Below are positions 685-13,632 of a DNA stretch of 64,000 nucleotides, one piece after another. The notes under the pieces were generated by a model. That model saw nothing but the letters and a program-made list of their open reading frames with translations. It made no database searches and had not been told where the DNA came from. The translations under genes were made by a program, and so were the position numbers. The stretch comes from Acidimicrobiia bacterium (GTDB lineage Bacteria > Actinomycetota > Acidimicrobiia > Acidimicrobiales > AC-14): positions 1-64,000 of the forward strand of contig JAHFUR010000015.1 of the NCBI GenBank assembly GCA_023264995.1, given 5' to 3'. Positions within the stretch are counted from its first letter, which is position 1, and the number at the start of each line of letters is the position of its first letter.

Positions 685-2457
685 GTGAGTCCGACGTCCA
701 GTTCGGAGTACGAACGTCGGCTGTCAGCCTACGAGCAGCAGGTCGAAGGCCTGCTCGAGCAGGTCAAGTCGTTGGAGGAGGAGGTCATCGGCCTCCGTCG
801 CAAGCTGCAGGACGCCCCCAAGCGGGTGCGGACCCTGGAAGAGCGCCTCCTGGAGACCAAGGGCCAGCTGGCCCAGGCCACCTCGCAGAACGAGAAGCTC
901 TCCTACACGTTGCGGGAGGCCCGCGACCACATCGCCGAGCTGCGCCGCGAGGTCGAGAAGCTGACCCAGCCCCCCTCCGCGTACGGCACCCTCCTCTCCC
1001 GCAACGACGACGGCACGGTCGACGTGTTCTCGGCCGGGCGGAAGATGCGCGTGGCACTGCACCCAGAGCTGGAGGACATCGAGCTCACGCGCGGCCAGGA
1101 GGTCGTGCTCAACGAGTCGCTCAACGTCGTCCTGGCCCGGGCGGCCGAGCTGTCCGGTGAGGTCACCACCCTCAAGGAGCTCCTGGAGGACGGCCGGCGG
1201 GCCATCGTGGTCGGCCGGGCCGACGAGGAACGCGTGGTCGAGCTGGCCGAGTCGCTGATGGGCGAGAAGCTGCGGGCCGGCGACAGCATCCTGATGGACT
1301 CCCGCACCGGGCTGCTCCTGGAGCGCCTGCCCCGCCCCGAGGTCGAGGAGCTGATCCTGGAGGAGGTGCCCGACGTCTCCTACGAGGACGTGGGCGGCCT
1401 CGACGACCAGATCGAGCAGATCACCGACGCCGTCGAGCTGCCCTTCCTGCACCGCGACCTCTTCACCGAGCACAAGCTGCCGGCGCCCAAGGGCATCCTG
1501 CTGTACGGGCCCCCGGGCTGCGGCAAGACCCTGATCGCCAAGGCGGTGGCCAACTCCCTGGCCCAGAAGGTCAGCGAGGTCACCGGCAACAAGGCGGCCC
1601 GCAGCTACTTCCTGAACATCAAGGGCCCGGAGCTGCTGAACAAGTACGTGGGCGAGACCGAGCGCCAGATCCGCCTCGTGTTCCAGCGGGCCCGGGAGAA
1701 GGCCGAGGAAGGCGTGCCCGTGATCGTCTTCTTCGACGAGATGGACTCGCTGTTCCGTACGCGCGGCACCGGGATCTCCTCCGACATGGAGGCCACGATC
1801 GTCCCCCAACTCCTCGCCGAGATCGACGGTGTCGAGACACTGAAGAACGTCATCGTGATCGGCGCCTCGAACCGTGAGGACCTCATCGACCCGGCCATCC
1901 TGCGTCCCGGCCGCCTCGACGTGAAGATCAAGATCGAGCGGCCGAACATGACCGCGGCCACCCAGATCTTCAGCCGGTACCTCACCTCCGACCTGCCGTT
2001 GGACGAGGGCGAGGTGGCCAGCCTGGGCGGCGGCGACCGCGACAAGGCGGTCAAGGTGATGATCGAGCGCACCGTCGCCGAGATGTACAAGGACGACGAC
2101 GACAACCGCTTCCTGGAGGTCACCTACCAGAACGGCGACAAGGAGATCCTGTACTACAAGGACTTCTCTTCGGGCGCCATGATCGAGAACATCGTGCGCC
2201 GGGCCAAGAAGCTGGCCATCAAGCGGGTCATCGCCGGCGAGAGCCGGGGTATCCGCACCTCCGACCTGCTCGAGTCCATCAAGCAGGAGTACAAGGAGCA
2301 CGAGGACTTGCCCAACACCACCAACCCCGACGACTGGGCCAAGATCTCGGGCAAGAAGGGCGAGCGGATCGTCTACGTCCGCACGCTCATGTCCAAGGGC
2401 AAGGAAGCCACCGGGGGACGGGCCATCGAGCGTGTCGGCACCGGCCAGTACTTGTAG
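685..2457 (+). CDS. arc: Proteasome-associated AAA+ ATPase ARC/Mpa
   Basis: 590-residue ring ATPase that binds pupylated proteins, unfolds them and feeds them into the 20S proteasome. An N-terminal coiled coil (about residues 5-85) captures Pup. It is followed by OB-type domains (about 90-230) and an AAA+ module with Walker A GPPGCGKT and Walker [10 protein letters not shown]. The protein ends in GQYL, the C-terminal tail with a penultimate Tyr that docks into the proteasome alpha ring in Mpa. The start is GTG 685. A GAGGGG about 12 bases upstream is the likelier ribosome site, because the closer GAGGAG abuts the start codon. It heads the arc-dop-pup-prcB-prcA run. Confidence 0.96.
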
Positions 2458-2491
2458 GGGCCGCGCCCCGGCCAGAGGGTAGGGTCCCGCG

Positions 2492-4000
2492 ATGGCGATC
2501 AGGAAGGTCTGCGGGATCGAGACCGAGTACGGGATCATCCTGCGGGGGGCCGAGTCCAACCCCATCACCGTCTCGTCGCTGCTGATCAACGCCTACGTGT
2601 CTGCTCTGCGCCAGCAGTCGGCCACGAGCGGCAAGGTGGGGTGGGACTTCGAGGACGAGTCCCCGGGCCGGGATGCCCGGGGGTTCGCCCGGGAAGGGGC
2701 AATGGCCCCGGAGATCGAGACCCATCTCGTCAATGCGGTATTGACGAACGGTGCCCGGTACTACGTCGACCACGCCCACCCGGAGTACTCCTCGCCCGAG
2801 TGCTCCGACGCCATGGAGGCCGTCCTCTGGGACAAGGCCGGCGAGCGGATCCTGGCCCGCTCGATCGAAGCTGCGGCGGAGATGCTCCCTTCGGGCCAGG
2901 AGATCGTGGTCTACAAGAACAACTCGGACCGCAAGGGCAATTCCTACGGCTGCCACGAGAACTACCTACTCGACCGGGCCGTGCCCTTCGCTCGGCTGGC
3001 CGCCCAGGTCACCCCCCACTTCGTCTCCCGCCTGATCTACACCGGCGCCGGCAAGGTCGGCAGCGAGGTCGCCGGCCTGGGCCCCGACCGGGTGCCGTTC
3101 CAGCTCACCCAGCGGGCGGAGTTCTTCGAGGAGGAAGTCGGCCTCGAGACCACGCTCAAGCGGCCCCTGGTCAACACTCGCGACGAGCCCCACTCCGACT
3201 CCCAGAAGTACCGTCGGCTGCACGTCATTGTGGGCGACGCCAACCTGGCCGAAGTGTCCACGTTCCTCAAGGTCGGCGTCACCGCCCTCGTCCTGGCCAT
3301 GATCGAGGACGACGAGCTGGCCGGGCTGGATCTCTCCCTGGCCGCTCCCGTCCAGGCCCACCGCACCGTGTCCTACGACCTCACGCTGGCCGTGCCCCTC
3401 GAACTGGCCGACGGCCGGCGCATGACCGCCCTGGAGATGCAGTGGGAGCTGCTCGACCGAGGTCGCAAATACGCCGAGAGCCGCGGGCTCGAGGCCGTCG
3501 GCGAGGAGGTCGGTCACGACCTGCTGGCCCGCTGGGAGGCCGTCCTTCACGCCCTGGAGACCGACTTCATGAGCCTGGCCGGCCAGCTCGACTGGGTGGC
3601 CAAGTACCAGATGGTCTCCGGGTACCGCGACCGGCACGGGTTGGGCTGGGGCGACCACAAGCTGGCCGCCCTCGACCTCCAGTACCACGACGTGCGGCCC
3701 GGGCGGTCCCTCTACGAGAAGTGCGGGCTGGAGCGCCTCCTGGCCGAGGACGCCGTGTCCGCGGCGGTCACCAACCCGCCTACTACCACCCGCGCCTACT
3801 TCCGGGGCCGCTGCCTGCAGAAGTGGGCCGGCTCGATCGCCGCCGCCAACTGGGACTCCCTGGTCTTCGACCTCGGCTCCGACCCGCTCCGGCGAGTCCC
3901 GATGATGGAACCGCTCAAAGGAACAGCGGCACATGTCGATAGGTTGTTACACGAGTGTGAGACCCCAGCCCAGCTTCTCGAGGCGCTGGGGTCAACGTAG
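2492..4000 (+). CDS. dop: Pup deamidase / depupylase Dop
   Basis: 502-residue carboxylate-amine ligase-fold enzyme. It converts the C-terminal Gln of Pup to Glu and can also remove Pup from substrates. It begins MAIRKVCGIETEYGI and carries the metal/ATP-site glutamates of that segment. Asp93 in YYVDHAHPEY is the catalytic aspartate position. The stretch at about residues 40-78 (including the WDFEDESPGRDARGFARE segment) corresponds to the Dop loop, which PafA lacks, and this separates it from the paralogue at 6285. Pup follows after 14 bases. The protein matches the usual Dop length. Confidence 0.95.
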   Translation: MAIRKVCGIETEYGIILRGAESNPITVSSLLINAYVSALRQQSATSGKVGWDFEDESPGRDARGFAREGAMAPEIETHLVNAVLTNGARYYVDHAHPEYSSPECSDAMEAVLWDKAGERILARSIEAAAEMLPSGQEIVVYKNNSDRKGNSYGCHENYLLDRAVPFARLAAQVTPHFVSRLIYTGAGKVGSEVAGLGPDRVPFQLTQRAEFFEEEVGLETTLKRPLVNTRDEPHSDSQKYRRLHVIVGDANLAEVSTFLKVGVTALVLAMIEDDELAGLDLSLAAPVQAHRTVSYDLTLAVPLELADGRRMTALEMQWELLDRGRKYAESRGLEAVGEEVGHDLLARWEAVLHALETDFMSLAGQLDWVAKYQMVSGYRDRHGLGWGDHKLAALDLQYHDVRPGRSLYEKCGLERLLAEDAVSAAVTNPPTTTRAYFRGRCLQKWAGSIAAANWDSLVFDLGSDPLRRVPMMEPLKGTAAHVDRLLHECETPAQLLEALGST

Positions 4001-4014
4001 GAGGAAGCCAGTCC

Positions 4015-4209
4015 ATGGCAGAACGTGAACAGAAGAGGAAGCAGTCGACGGCTCGCAGCGACGAGGTGGTCGAGGCCGTTCCCACCACGACCAAGCAGGG
4101 CGACAAATTGAAGGCCGAGCTCGACGAGCTTTTGGACGAAATCGACGAAGTGCTCGAGGACAACGCCGAGGAGTTCGTTCGCTCTTATGTCCAAAAGGGC
4201 GGTCAATAG
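4015..4209 (+). CDS. pup: Prokaryotic ubiquitin-like protein Pup (Gln-terminal)
   Basis: 64-residue protein tag. It is highly charged, largely disordered at the N-terminus, has a helical/coiled-coil-forming segment at about residues 25-55 that binds the ARC coiled coil, and ends in Gly-Gly-Gln. The terminal Gln means Dop must deamidate it to Glu before PafA can ligate it to lysine side chains. A good Shine-Dalgarno (AGGAGGAAG) precedes ATG 4015. It lies between dop and prcB, as in most actinobacteria. Identification rests on the diagnostic C-terminus and on context. Confidence 0.97.
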   Translation: MAEREQKRKQSTARSDEVVEAVPTTTKQGDKLKAELDELLDEIDEVLEDNAEEFVRSYVQKGGQ

Positions 4210-4361
4210 ACCTTCGGCACACATGCAAAATGGTCTTGGGTAGAGAGCGCCCGTTCGCGCATCAAGCGGGTGGCGGATGACGTGCGCGGCGCAGATCGAG
4301 CAGGCTCGCCGCCGGGCCACCGCCCAGGTAGCCGGCGAGCGTCCACTAGCCTCGCTCGGCG

Positions 4362-5156
4362 ATGAGCCTCCCGATGTTCGCACCCGGCCAGGATCCCGGG
4401 CCCAGCTTCTCCGAGCTGTTGCGCCGGACGAACGGCGACCAGCCCCTGCTCCGGAACACGGGGGCGGTGGAGATCACCCACGGCACCACGATCGTGGCCC
4501 TGCGCTACGCCGAGGGCGTGGTCATGGCGGGCGACCGTCGGGCCACCGAGGGCTACAGCATCGCTTCCCGGGCCATTGACAAGGTGTTCCCGGCCGACGG
4601 CCACTCGGGCGTCGCCATTGCCGGTGCCGCCGGGCCAGCGGTCGAGATGGTCCGCCTCTTCCAGACCGAGCTCGAGCACTACGAGAAGGTCGAGGGCATG
4701 GCCCTCAGCCTGGAAGGCAAGGCCAACCAGCTCGGCGGGATGATCCGTCGCAACCTGCCCATGGCCATGGAGGGCCTGGCCGTGGTGCCGATCTACGCCG
4801 GCTACGACCTGCGCCGGCGCATCGGCCGCATCTTCAAGTACGACCTCACCGGCGGGCGCTACGAGGAGGGCGACTTCCACGCCACCGGCTCCGGCGGCCG
4901 GGACGCCCGGACCACCATCAAGCTCGGCTACCGCGACGGCCTCGACCGGGCCGCCGCCATCCAGCTGGCGGTCGAGGGCCTCTACCAGGCGGCCGACGAG
5001 GACTCGGCCACCGGCGGCCCCGACGTGGTCCGGGGCATCTACCCGACCGTGGCCACCATCACCGTCGCCGGCTTCGAGCGGGTGGAGGACACCGAGGTGG
5101 CCCAGCGTTTTGGCGAGCTCCTCCAGCGAAAGACCGCCGAAGGGCACCCTCGATGA
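4362..5156 (+). CDS. prcB: 20S proteasome beta subunit
   Basis: 264-residue catalytic subunit of the 20S core. It is made with a propeptide of about 41 residues. Autocleavage is expected between Gly41 and Thr42 in the THG/TTIVAL junction, freeing the N-terminal nucleophile threonine. Downstream motifs ([33 protein letters not shown]) are standard for the family. A 152-base gap separates it from pup, larger than the other gaps in this run; I see no clear promoter there. prcA follows 16 bases after the stop, consistent with coupled expression in equal amounts. Confidence 0.96.
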
Positions 5157-5172
5157 GCAAAGGCGCAACCCG

Positions 5173-5859
5173 ATGAGCATGCCGTTCTACGTCGCGCCCG
5201 AGCAGGTCATGAAGGACCGGGCCGACTACGCCCGGAAGGGCATCGCCCGGGGTCGCAGCCTGGTGGCGCTCAGCTACGACGAGGGCATCCTGATCTGCGC
5301 TGAGAACCCGTCGCGCACCCTCCACAAGGTGGCCGAGATCTACGACCGGATCGGCTTCGCCGGCGTGGGTAAGTTCAGCGAGTTCGACTCGCTGCGAACT
5401 CAGGGCATCCGCCTGGCCGACCTCAAGGGGTACACGTACTCCCGGGAGGACGTCGACGCCCGCTCCCTGGCCAACGCCTACGCCCAGCTCCTGGGCAACG
5501 TGTTCACTCACGAGATGAAGCCCATGGAGGTCGAGATCCTCGTGGCCGAGGTCGGGGTCGACAAGGACGCCGACCAGCTCTTCCGTATCTCCTACGAGGG
5601 CACGATCGTCGACGAGGACGGCTCCACTGTGCTGGGGGGCGACGCCGACACGGTCAACGAGCGCCTCAAGGCCAACCTCACCGGTACCCTCGACATGGGG
5701 GCCGCCCTCCGGGCCGCGGTGAGCGCACTAGCCGGCCCTGAGCGGGTGCTCGAGGCGAGCAACCTCGAAGTGGCCGTGCTGTGCCGCACCAGCGCCCGCC
5801 GGGCCTTCCGCCGGGTGCCGGTGGCCGAGCTCACGACGCTGCTGGTCGCTCCCGCGTAA
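5173..5859 (+). CDS. prcA: 20S proteasome alpha subunit
   Basis: 228-residue non-catalytic subunit of the outer proteasome rings, which gate the channel and dock ARC. I chose ATG 5173 ([20 protein letters not shown]) because the [10 protein letters not shown]-terminus is characteristic of actinobacterial PrcA and AAAGG lies upstream. The frame is open further 5' but only inside prcB. Conserved segments include [19 protein letters not shown] and [20 protein letters not shown]. It is the last gene of the co-directional arc-prcA run. The next gene is on the opposite strand. Confidence 0.95.
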
Positions 5860-5938
5860 GCCCTCAGAGGCCCGTGACCGTCGGCGGGGATGGCCCAGAC
5901 ATCCTCGACGGTGAGCGGGGTGCCGATCGGGAGGGCCA

Positions 5939-6259
5939 TCAGAAGGTCCGCGACAAGATCACGGCGGCCAAGCCGAGAATGGCGCCGACGACCAGCCACA
6001 GGGCCTTCGGCGCCCAGAGGTCGCCGGCCTCCTCGGGCTCGTCGAACGCCGATTCCACCTCGTCGACCATGAGGATCTCCTGGGCTTCGGCCAGGTCGTC
6101 GCTGTCGACGAAGACATGCACGTCACCGACCGGGTACAAGCCGTCGACATTGCCCCGCAGGTCGGTGACGATGCCTTCGGAACCGAGCCGGGCGGCGATG
6201 ACGCGGGCATGGAACGAGGTGCCCACCGTGGCCAAACGCACCATGCGCGTCTGTTGCAT
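5939..6259 (-). CDS. DUF2007 protein with a C-terminal membrane helix
   Basis: Small protein of unknown role. The start is set at ATG 6259 ([13 protein letters not shown]), giving about 106 residues. The frame continues upstream but would run into pafA. Residues 5-60 fit the DUF2007 'putative signal transducing protein' fold ([15 protein letters not shown]..., [25 protein letters not shown]). The C-terminus is one hydrophobic helix ([16 protein letters not shown]), so it is probably membrane-anchored by its tail. It separates prcA from pafA in the opposite orientation, and its start codon lies only 25 bases from that of pafA. Confidence 0.75.
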
Positions 6260-6284
6260 CGCCTCCAACGGTAGCTTGGCCCTT

Positions 6285-7643
6285 ATGGAGCGGCGCATCT
6301 TCGGGCTCGAGAACGAGTACGGCGTCACCTGCACTCTCCGCGGCCAGCGCCGGCTCAGCCCCGACGAGGTTGCCCGCTACCTGTTCCGGCGGGTCGTGTC
6401 GTGGGGCCGGAGCAGCAACGTGTTCCTCGAGAACGGGGCGCGGCTCTACCTCGATGTCGGCAGCCACCCGGAGTACGCCACCCCCGAGTGCGACTCGATC
6501 GAGGACCTCGTGGCCCACGACAAGGCCGGGGAGCGCATCCTCGAAAGCCTCCTGGCCAGCGCCGAGCAGCGGCTGCGGGAGGAAGGCATCCGGGGGATCG
6601 TCTACCTCTTCAAGAACAACACGGACTCGGCCGGCAACTCCTACGGCTGCCACGAGAACTACCTGACCAGCCGGCGCGACGACTTCGGCCATTACGCCGA
6701 GGTCCTCATCCCCTTCTTTGTGAGCCGGCAGATCTTCGCCGGCGCCGGCAAGGTGTTGAACACGGCCCGGGGGGCCACGTACTGCCTGAGCCAACGGGCC
6801 GAGCACATCTGGGAGGGCGTGTCCTCGGCCACGACCCGGAGCCGGCCCATCATCAACACCCGCGACGAGCCCCATGCCGATGCCGAGCGGTTCCGGCGCC
6901 TGCACGTGATCGTCGGCGACTCCAACATGAGCGAGTACGCCACGTTCATCAAGATGGGGACGACGAGCATCCTGCTGCGCATGCTCGAAGACCCGGGCGT
7001 CGTCCTGCGGGACATGACGCTCGACAACCCCATCCGGGCCATCCGGGAGATCAGCCACGACATCACCTGCACCCGCAAGGTGCGGTTGGAGAACGGGCGG
7101 GAGCTCTCGGCCCTCGAGATCCAGGGCGAGTACCTCAGCCGGGCCCTGCGCTACGCCGAGACCCGGGGCCTGAGCCCCATCGAGGAGCAGGCCCTCAAGA
7201 TGTGGGAGCACTGCCTCACCAAGATCCAGGTCGACCCCCTGAGCCTCGACCGGGAGTGCGACTGGGTCATCAAGTACAAGATGATCGAGGCCTATCGCGA
7301 GCGCCACGGGCTCAGCCTCACCAGCCCCAAGGTCGCCCTCCTCGACCTGCAGTACCACGACGTCAACCGCAAGCGCGGCCTGTACTACCTCCTCCAGGAC
7401 CGCGGCATGGTCGAGCGGATCGTCACCGACGAGGCCATCGACACCGCGGTGACCACCCCGCCCCAGACCACCCGGGCCCGGCTGCGGGGCGAGTTCATCC
7501 GCAAGGCCAAGGAGCGCAAGCGGGATTACACCGTCGACTGGGTCCACCTGAAGCTCAACGACCAGGCCCAGCGCACGGTCCTGTGCAAGGACCCCTTCAA
7601 GTCTCGCGACGAGCGCGTGGAGAAGCTCATCGCTTCTTTGTGA
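6285..7643 (+). CDS. pafA: Pup-protein ligase PafA
   Basis: 452-residue ligase that phosphorylates the C-terminal Glu of Pup with ATP and joins it to target lysines. The start is ATG 6285 ([14 protein letters not shown]). The preceding open frame belongs to no recognisable domain. Glu9 and Glu11 lie in the Mg/ATP motif, and Asp57 in [14 protein letters not shown] matches the catalytic Asp57 known from PafA. There is no Dop-loop insertion, which distinguishes it from the Dop at 2492. The stop codon lies inside a long perfect inverted repeat (7636-7678). Its promoter must overlap the divergent DUF2007 gene. Confidence 0.96.
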
Positions 7644-11929: not shown

Positions 11930-12703
11930 CTAGCCGGCGGGCGCGAACATCCCTTCGAGGCGCTCGGCCAGCCGCCCGATGGCCTGGACCGCCTCGCAGT
12001 CGGGGGCGCTGTCGAGGACACAGCGCGACGCCCGGTCGGCGGCGGGGACCGAGGGGTCCTCGGGGATGGCCACGAGGAGCTCGCAGCCGCGCTCGGCGGC
12101 GAACGCCTCCATCCGTTCGACGTCGGCCGGCCCGGTGGCCCGGTTGCCGATGAACGCGACGCGGGGGATCCCCAGCTCAAGGGCCAGCTTGTGGGTGCGG
12201 TCGGCGGTCATCATCACCTTCGCCGTCGGTTGGACGACGACGAGGAGGATGTCGACGTAGCGCAGAGTGCCGCCGGCCCAGGAGAGGTGCTCGAGGCCGG
12301 CCTCCATGTCGGCGACGACGAACGTGCCCGGAAGGTCCTTCTCTATCCGTTCGATGAAGTCACGCACGGTGACATGGGCGGTACCCGTTCAGCCGGAGCC
12401 GGCCTTCTCGGCCATCGCCCCCAGCAGGATGGTGATGCCGTCGGGGCCGGGTGTGCCGTACTGCTCCAGGAGCTGGGTGGGCGACAGCCCCTCCGGCACC
12501 CGCCGGCGGGGGCCGGACTGGTCGAGGAACGGGCGCAGCTTGGCCGCACCCTCCTCGCCCAGGCCGATGTTGGCGCCCAGGTTCGGGTCTGAGTCACAGT
12601 CGATGGCGATCACCCGGTGGCCCCGACGGGCCAGGGTGCGGGACAACACGGCGGAGGTGGTGGTCTTGCCCACCCCGCCCTTGCCGGAGATGCCGAGGCG
12701 CAT
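11930..12703 (-). CDS. CooC/ParA-type nucleotide-binding ATPase with one in-frame TGA (selenoprotein candidate or nonsense-interrupted gene)
   Basis: Reading from ATG 12703, the frame encodes a deviant-Walker P-loop ATPase (SGKGGVGKTTT at about residues 6-16, IDCDSDPNLG at about 34-43). It stops at TGA 12391-12389 (codon 105, after AEKAGSG). It resumes in the same frame with TGTAHVTVRDFIERI and continues to TAG 11930, including VVADMEAGLEHLSWAGG and VVVQPTAKVMMTADRT. The total is 257 codons, the normal size for the family. There is no frameshift or other lesion. Relatives that I recall carry cysteines in a C-x-C motif near this site; here the first position is TGA and the third is Gly. Either the TGA is recoded or the gene is freshly broken. 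The physiological role is unknown; CooC itself inserts nickel. Confidence 0.72.
12359..12373 (-). promoter_or_regulatory. SECIS-like hairpin downstream of the in-frame TGA
   Basis: On the coding (reverse) strand GTCAC-CGTGC-GTGAC forms a perfect 5-bp stem with a 5-base loop. The loop begins 21 bases after the TGA at 12391-12389. Bacterial selenocysteine insertion elements generally place a small apical loop about 16-37 bases after the UGA, with a G among the first two loop bases. Here the second loop base is G. A lower pairing of TGAA with TTCA just outside the stem is possible. A short hairpin like this also occurs by chance, so it is suggestive only. Confidence 0.3.
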
Positions 12704-12746: not shown

Positions 12747-12885
12747 CGCCGGCGGTTCGGGCAGAGGCGGTTACGGCAGCAGGCGGCGGATGGGGTCGAC
12801 GGCCGGCATCTATGGGTGGAGCTGGGTCGACCGTTGCCGCTGCCTGCGCCGGCGGTTACGGCAGCAGGCGGCGGATGGGGTCGAC
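12747..12885. repeat. Partial duplication of the 3' end of the following reverse-strand gene
   Basis: A 35-base sequence is present twice in direct orientation, at 12766-12800 and 12851-12885, 85 bases apart. The second copy is the C-terminal coding end (VDPIRRLLP plus stop) of the gene ending at 12856. The first is a non-coding duplicate downstream of it. A third fragment, 12747-12765, matches 12847-12865 at 17 of 19 positions. This looks like a local tandem duplication by slippage or unequal recombination. Confidence 0.8.
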
Positions 12886-13632
12886 CCAGGTGTCGGTGTT
12901 GGTGGGGTCGAGGGCGATGTCGGCGCCCAGCGGCACCTGGGCGTCCGAGGTGACGGCTGCGACGGGCAGGAACCGGCCGCACGCCACGGCCCGGAGCTCC
13001 ATGACGAACTCCTTCCCCGTCGGCCCGCTGGCGTCGATCAGCACGACCGTCGGGATGATCCCGCCGCACATCTCGGGGGTGATGCTGTCGAAGTCGCGGG
13101 TAATGAACCGGCAGTCGGGGAGGTTGCCTTCGAGGGCACGGGTGCGGTCCTCGTCGACACCGATGGTGAGGACGATCGATGGGGGCAGGCCGGCGTTGCG
13201 CCGGGCCCCTCCCATCTCGGCGGTGTAGTCGGGCTCCTTGAAGGGCTCGTCGGTGGCGTAGTCGCCGAGGAAGGCGTCAGCCCCGGCTCGGGCGCTGATG
13301 GCCGCCTCCGCCGTCTTCGCGTCCGCGGCCCACACCTCCCACTGGACGATGCCCAGGGCGATCTCGGTGTAGGTGATGGCGTAGAGCAGCGGCGGGTTGG
13401 TGGCCACCGGCTGCATGCCCGAGACCGAGAGCTCCAGGGTCACCTGGTCGACGATGTCGGTGTCCCGGGGTGGGGCGTCCCGCCGGACGGAGAACACGTC
13501 CGGGGACACCCGGAAGCAGATTTGCCACCACCCGTCGAGGAACAGGCAGTCGCCTTCCAGGTGAGTGCTCGGGCCGAACGCAGTGCGGGCGCCGTCGTGC
13601 AGAAACGCGGCGATTACCTCGCGGTCTTCCAT
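12856..13632 (-). CDS. Unknown protein with a possible receiver-like C-terminal domain
   Basis: 258 residues from ATG 13632 (MEDREVIAAFLHDGARTAFG). I do not recognise the N-terminal half, which contains WWQICFRVSPDVFSVRRD and a predicted alpha/beta region. The C-terminal about 110 residues resemble a CheY fold. PSIVLTIGVDEDRTRALE gives the first strand and helix, IPTVVLIDAS places an Asp where the phospho-acceptor would be, LPVAAVTSD is strand 4, and ADIALDP is strand 5. The usual Lys after strand 5 is absent, so if it is a receiver it is a non-phosphorylatable type. The start lies 3 bases from the divergent neighbour's proposed start. Its 3' end is duplicated downstream. Confidence 0.6.
   Translation of the reverse strand: MEDREVIAAFLHDGARTAFGPSTHLEGDCLFLDGWWQICFRVSPDVFSVRRDAPPRDTDIVDQVTLELSVSGMQPVATNPPLLYAITYTEIALGIVQWEVWAADAKTAEAAISARAGADAFLGDYATDEPFKEPDYTAEMGGARRNAGLPPSIVLTIGVDEDRTRALEGNLPDCRFITRDFDSITPEMCGGIIPTVVLIDASGPTGKEFVMELRAVACGRFLPVAAVTSDAQVPLGADIALDPTNTDTWVDPIRRLLP

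Follow-up and report, generated by a model that had tools for sequence, protein, structure and literature searches.

A predicted selenocysteine-containing CooC-like ATPase and its possible role in nickel handling for [NiFe]-hydrogenases

CobW proteins are P-loop GTPases of the G3E metallochaperone kind, another NTPase branch than MinD/CooC/NifH, and NifH-type reductases carry two cluster cysteines per subunit. In dimers of CooC1, zinc, and nickel competing with it, is held at the interface by Cys112 and Cys114 (PMC6006190), and HypB, likewise a P-loop NTPase, has a metal site that is coupled to its nucleotide (PMC9164220). A Sec-bearing relative of what we take to be a metal-handling NTPase has already been listed: Table 1 of PMC13188914 holds a CobW-related selenoprotein (NF041053, U-x-x-C). 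The protein described below would resemble the selenoproteins of that 2026 inventory in having a UGA-encoded selenocysteine (Sec, U) and Cys homologues; the 119 prokaryotic selenoprotein families and subfamilies in its Table 1 include no MinD/CooC/NifH-type ATPase. A term search of a 2025 prediction paper (PMC12013277) gave no mention of ATPase, CooC or MinD, and the full-text literature, among the matches listed and with few subscription journals covered, held nothing on Sec in MinD/CooC/NifH-type ATPases. Fold and recoding mechanism are both known; it is their combination that appears to be new, in an apparently undescribed group. With it, the selenoproteins would gain a MinD/CooC/NifH-branch ATPase whose Sec occupies a metal-ligand position, and motifs with two Sec (U-x-U) would be among its forms. 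Gene callers that treat TGA as a stop split such genes in two, as our own caller did, so that they are easily missed.

The window analysed here is the whole stretch of 64,000 nucleotides, which is contig C21:1-64000 of the genome that we labelled G000. Reading its minus strand from 12703 to 11930 with TGA as U gave a single frame of 257 residues, from an ATG at 12703 to a TAG at 11932-11930, in which the only internal TGA, at 12391-12389, is codon 105 (...AEKAGSG-U-TGTAHVTVRDFIE...). The original prediction had found both halves of an ATPase in one frame, joined at this TGA with frameshift absent, and translation agrees; its positions and description of the TGA and of a hairpin downstream also proved correct on re-reading. 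It had proposed a selenoprotein candidate, and the Sec machinery of the genome, the conserved TGA at a Cys position, a covarying hairpin and purifying selection all agree with that proposal. Judged from these sequence data, the gene almost certainly encodes a selenoprotein in which UGA105 is decoded as Sec, with a SECIS hairpin 15 nt downstream. The codon would be read by SelA, SelB, SelD and tRNA-Sec, steered by this hairpin.

Pfam models scoring over their cut-offs for the product were CbiA, Fer4_NifH and related P-loop models, and no NCBIfam model, those of NifH type included, exceeded its cut-off. The best PDB sequence match was CooC1 of Carboxydothermus hydrogenoformans (3kje, E 9.6e-20), and Foldseek with the AlphaFold model (pLDDT 83 overall) ranked MinD first and CooC1 second (TM 0.74). 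Shared with CooC1 are the MinD-type fold, a deviant Walker A motif (GKGGVGKTT, residues 7-15, 12659-12685 on the minus strand), which is invariant in a 10-row orthologue alignment, and the place of Sec105, which was aligned to the metal-ligand Cys112 of the CooC1 motif C112-x-C114. A Cys at or beside codon 105 had been expected for the family in the original prediction, and such a Cys is present both in CooC1 and in homologues. The window protein differs from CooC1 in having Sec for Cys, no second Cys and a His five residues on, where CooC1 has C-x-C-P-E-N; in place of the C-x-C metal motif of CooC, U-T-G or U-T-W was found in 10/10 rows. As the subfamily of the window protein retains one C-x-C position only, its motif by itself cannot supply the four ligands of a site like that of CooC.

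Further differences from CooC1 concern phylogeny and genomic setting. In a quick tree, made without bootstrapping from 142 motif-bearing homologues of the first set only, one half of 68 rows (branch support 92) held all the Sec proteins, and the remaining 74 rows, Cys throughout, held the CooC-type proteins; the window ATPase falls outside the 74-row half, which holds the C-x-C-P-E type. The Sec/Cys label changes five times on this tree, with at least four of the changes forced by well-supported branches. Because the Sec proteins form a separate half, we regard the window protein as a CooC-like ATPase, within the MinD/NifH (SIMIBI) group, and not as CooC. Ni-CODH (CooS) was absent from 31 of the 32 genomes tested, and a role in CODH maturation was rejected on this ground; in the sole genome with CooS (G068), about 230 bp separate cooS from a Cys gene of the CooC type. 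The first description as a CooC/ParA-type ATPase stands as far as fold and nearest solved relative are concerned, but does not extend to CooC orthology, given the place of the protein in the tree. NifH, BchL and CfbC share the same fold, and in an alignment with 1cp2 Sec105 falls on the Cys of the NifH motif G-x-G-C-x-G. Unlike NifH with its two cysteines, the window ATPase has Ala135 at what we take to be the position of the second cluster Cys.

By analogy with CooC1, Sec105 would replace the first Cys of C-x-C, the interface ligand of Zn or Ni in CooC1 dimers. Homology further suggests that the protein most likely dimerises with nucleotide, and that the dimer would hold a soft metal ion, of which Ni(II) is the likeliest, by two selenolates and other ligands and release it on ATP binding or hydrolysis. 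Candidates for these other ligands are His110 and Cys228, both invariant in the 10-row alignment. His110 (12376-12374, minus strand) also occurs at the same offset in C-x-C-x-x-H paralogues and is our candidate for a second metal ligand; Cys228 (12022-12020, minus strand) is a candidate partner of Sec105. The metal site may consist of two Se and two His or may include Cys228, or Sec may instead be redox-active. In the maturation of [NiFe]-hydrogenases the protein would deliver or store nickel, and a Sec CooC-like ATPase with this job is in our judgement the best explanation overall and a fairly probable one.

It seems unlikely that Sec105 is instead a redox or regulatory residue of the selenoprotein, for example one that forms a selenenylsulfide with Cys228 or with Cys36 (DCDSDP; 12598-12596, minus strand) and thereby switches the ATPase, rather than a metal ligand. 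Such a function would fit the invariance of both Cys36 and Cys228 in the 10-row alignment, where the second C-x-C residue is lost, and the statement that most uncharacterised selenoprotein families are probably redox proteins (PMC13188914 section 7), but it fits less well with a position that is a metal ligand in CooC1, with paralogues that retain U-x-C, C-x-U and U-x-U, and with a hydrogenase context that suggests metal handling. The AlphaFold model offers no distance argument for partners of Sec105, since residues 101-110 have a mean pLDDT of only 52.

A nickel role of the ATPase in hydrogenase maturation is suggested by the co-occurrence of the family with [NiFe]-hydrogenases, its presence in their gene clusters and its partial complementarity with HypA. 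The first homologue search covered 118 genomes (own included), of which 18 had CooC-like matches at 1e-10 and 25 had a hydrogenase large subunit, called from a match over 100 bits (our own cut). Genomes with a large subunit included 16 of the 18 with CooC-like ATPases (one-sided p 1e-11, relatedness ignored) and 10/10 with the window subfamily (one-sided p 3e-8, relatedness again ignored). In 13 of these 18 genomes, no more than 8 kb lay between a CooC-like gene and a large-subunit match, although in two of the 13 (G000 and G001) the nearby match covered just a short C-terminal part at the end of a contig and was under the cut-off. CooC-like genes of several genomes were clustered with predicted hydrogenase subunits, HypD, HypE, HypF, HycI and a NifU-domain protein, and the same clusters held small membrane proteins and peptide/nickel-type importers (the importers under NCBIfam cut-offs); gene names were transferred by BLAST from references, several being given by eye. 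A named Actinomycetota MAG (L076) had a U-x-U gene with a hydrogenase small subunit, HypD and HypE, and an 11 kb stretch of Pseudonocardia (L087) had HycI and other accessory genes and no hydrogenase subunit. The window subfamily itself was not found in any hydrogenase cluster, such clustering being known only for its paralogues, so that for this subfamily the link is phyletic only and the proposed nickel role weaker. [NiFeSe]-hydrogenase as the user of selenium was considered and rejected, as the four large subunits inspected had Cys at all four of the positions that we take to be Ni ligands. Beside the CooC-like ATPases of the hydrogenase clusters L240, L241, L244, L033 and others, small membrane proteins (about 80-90 aa) recurred together with other uncharacterised proteins; one of the small membrane proteins was searched and gave no Pfam match.

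HypA was over its cut-off in 14 of the 25 hydrogenase genomes, with G111, whose match of 21 bits is under the cut-off, counted as lacking it. CooC-like ATPases were present in 10/11 hydrogenase genomes without HypA as against 6/14 with HypA (p 0.03, relatedness ignored); eight genomes had HypA only, and the single one with neither (G071) is 78% complete. This suggests that the CooC-like family partly complements HypA. HypB was lacking in 16 of the 25, ten with and six without CooC-like matches, which alone is not informative, and HypA and HypB were also both present in 4/10 genomes of the window subfamily. Likeness to HypB and HypA lies in the proposed role, delivery of nickel to [NiFe]-hydrogenase; HypB is a GTPase, whereas the window protein is an ATPase. 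The family might represent a new route of nickel insertion into [NiFe]-hydrogenases that may complement HypA/HypB. The stronger proposal, that the actinobacterial Sec CooC-like ATPases are a nickel-insertion system for [NiFe]-hydrogenases, selenolate-based and ATP-driven, which can replace HypA/HypB while the hydrogenase keeps its Cys ligands, appears to us about as plausible as its opposite.

The window ATPase gene was found near proteasome, signal peptidase, leucine-biosynthesis and other genes, read by eye. By eye from translations we also noted an apparent Pup-proteasome locus at 685-7643 on the plus strand of the window. The upstream neighbour of the ATPase gene in our own gene calls (12856-13632, minus strand) had no match in Pfam or NCBIfam; G002, G005 and G006 have the same neighbour next to their ATPase genes. 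G000 alone has four Sec members of the family, as three further Sec-type CooC-like ATPases are encoded on other contigs: a U-x-C form (L033:5764-6531, C5), a U-x-U form (L036:4970-5710, C34) and a U-G-G form (L037:5696-6424, C10), the latter two in tandem with an ATPase without the motif. Across the family we observed one-Sec forms (U-x-G/W, U-x-C and C-x-U) and a two-Sec form (U-x-U), and most of the C-x-U and U-x-U forms were paired in tandem with an ATPase that lacks the motif. Also in G000, a Cys-type CooC-like pair (L035:4826-7201, C81) lies beside genes read by eye as cobalamin adenosyltransferase and cobalamin synthesis genes and may be a cobalt counterpart. In G592 (L250:3915-8123) the orthologue starts about 10 bp after an importer of periplasmic-binding protein, FecCD permease and ATPase, which together with it might form an operon for uptake of a metal chelate or cobalamin.

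More unlikely still than a redox Sec is a selenoprotein metallochaperone for another metal or cofactor, be it cobalt, a corrinoid or a NifH-like iron-sulfur cluster. The cobalamin genes beside the Cys-type pair of G000 and the importer of BtuCD or siderophore kind just ahead of the G592 orthologue would be in line with it, but such an importer stands beside the window subfamily in that one genome only; similarly, Sec105 aligns with the NifH cluster Cys, but Ala135 occupies the presumed place of the second one. The phyletic link of the family, moreover, is to [NiFe]-hydrogenase.

Looking up selA, selB, selC and selD had been proposed together with the original prediction, and all four are present in G000. 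A search of the genome gave SelA (337 bits), SelB directly beside it (269 bits, cut-off 242) and SelD (359 bits), which has one in-frame TGA of its own (L056, G000:C36:4151-5071) and is probably itself a selenoprotein; a tRNA-Sec with anticodon TCA was found as well (66 bits), and ARAGORN agreed. The absence of Sec machinery, named there as an argument against recoding, does not hold for this genome. SelB was over its cut-off in 10/10 genomes with the window's ATPase subfamily (own included) vs 63/118 overall, and of the 30 genomes in a second set, SelA was found in 13/13 with Sec-type ATPases vs 11/17 with Cys-type ones only; G049 belongs both to the ten and to the 13. G054, one of the 17 Cys-only genomes, has SelA and no SelB over the cut-off. 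Its class-C counterpart is Cys-x-Cys, and the TGA seen in the first homologue search turned out on reading to be the terminal stop. In G106, a draft of 520 contigs, a C-x-U ATPase gene (L047:3414, minus strand) and SelA were seen, yet SelB had no match over the cut-off, probably because the draft is incomplete.

The hairpin downstream of codon 105 consists of GTCAC (12373-12369), the loop CGTGC (12368-12364) and GTGAC (12363-12359) on the minus strand, in accord with the 5-bp stem and 5-base loop with G as second base first reported for it. It starts 15 nt after the TGA and its apical loop 20 nt after it. The rules for bacterial SECIS elements quoted in PMC13188914 include a stem of 4-16 bp, an apical loop of 3-9 nt with G in the first two loop positions and 16-37 nt from UGA to loop; the window hairpin, with 5 bp, 5 nt and 20 nt, agrees with these values. 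An Rfam search over the gene gave four chance-level matches and no SECIS. Among Sec genes of the same layout, meaning a His five residues after Sec, nucleotides 16-20 and 26-30 after the TGA pair fully in 18/18, compared with 0/27 Cys homologues of that layout (Fisher 6e-13, a value that overstates the case, as the register was fixed after inspecting Sec sequences and the genes are related). These 18 genes have four different stems, with two-sided changes at three of the five pairs: 17-29 (CG, TA, TG), 18-28 (CG, TA) and 19-27 (AT, GC). Genes of the U-x-U/C-x-U/U-G-G type have the loop AGTT in 18/18 and a complete 6-bp stem in 15/18. With registers fixed, the first hairpin was recovered in 9/18 Sec genes of a later set, the three orthologues of the phylum-wide sample (below) among them, vs 0/11 Cys genes (p 0.005), and the second hairpin in 9/9 and 6/6 Sec genes of two later sets.

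The nine later Sec genes without the first hairpin are of one protein type with the motif GULC[AG]AHARVRGLL (L212-L218, L220, L225). By eye and afterwards, an alternative perfect stem, GCGCAC/GTGCGC, was seen in these genes, with a 6-nt loop that has G first and lies 15 nt from the TGA, slightly under the usual SECIS spacing; covariation was absent. Folding energy did not discriminate: for the window gene it was -5.5 kcal/mol against a shuffle mean of -5.2, with 44% of synonymous shuffles of this GC-rich stretch as low, and z values against such shuffles ranged from -2.1 to +0.2 across Sec genes. What exceeds chance in the hairpin is its position, base pairing and codon choice, and not its energy alone. 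The codon of Arg114, for instance, is CGT in 10/10 alignment rows, and CGT makes up 5.2% of Arg codons in the genes of the window.

A reading of UGA105 as another amino acid, through an altered code or a suppressor tRNA, or a leaky regulatory readthrough is highly improbable next to Sec insertion, as homologues have Cys at this position and the genome combines a full Sec machinery with a hairpin confined to TGA genes. TGA is also the commonest stop in the window (32/56 genes scored by our own simple gene caller), and an altered genetic code was rejected on this ground.

In the window gene and in each of the nine orthologues nearest to it (55-95% identity) there is a single internal TGA, always at the same codon; a TAG also listed in one orthologue match was its terminal stop. 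The TGA at codon 105 was retained in 9/9 orthologues from the other 117 genomes, and it is also present in three further orthologues, recognised by their similarity and motif in a phylum-wide sample (396 genomes, own included). The alignment at codon 105 that had been recommended for the candidate gives TGA in 12/12 orthologues from genomes other than G000, the most distant of them at 47-50% identity. Relatives with the same TGA plus further disabling mutations, which would have weakened the case, were looked for and not encountered among the orthologues. The original prediction had also worried that Gly at the second Cys of C-x-C might point to a recent mutation; as Gly or Trp stands there in the gene and in all 12 orthologues, the substitution is stable and no sign of decay.

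The coding stretch past the TGA has also been maintained. The dN/dS values before and after the TGA were 0.08 and 0.10 against two congeners (L002-L003, L002-L004), 0.07-0.15 and 0.19-0.48 for three other pairs, and 0.29-0.30 and 0.43-0.66 for two distant pairs. The stretch past the TGA is under purifying selection, weaker than that on the P-loop half, with the downstream value the higher in 7/7 pairs. A recent nonsense mutation or sequencing error has next to no probability, for although the sequence rests on one assembly, the TGA in 12/12 orthologues in practice rules out error or pseudogene and purifying selection continues past it.

More widely, 165 CooC-like homologues above 100 bits were harvested from the examined loci, and 37 of them passed a scripted rule for internal TGAs that excluded the last 8 residues of the matched stretch; L170 (TGA position 257) was discarded as a C-terminal stop, which left 36. 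Internal TGAs were present in 36/165, 27/59 and 6/14 homologues of our three sets, fractions that are not rates because some regions were chosen for their TGA, and in all three sets they occurred only at position 1 and/or 3 of C-x-C. The 36 comprised 13 with Sec first and no Cys in third place, 8 U-x-C, 4 C-x-U and 11 U-x-U. A scan of named genomes with two general P-loop peptides yielded mostly distant CooC-type proteins among the matches listed, and two of the 80 loci listed gave Sec ATPases (L076 and L087). The second of these loci is from Pseudonocardia kunmingensis DSM 45301 (NZ_VFPA01000002.1, L087:3668-9452), where a C-x-U ATPase and its partner were found with Cys-type paralogues and a HycI-type protease gene; SelA is encoded elsewhere in this genome, and the strain would be a practical test organism.
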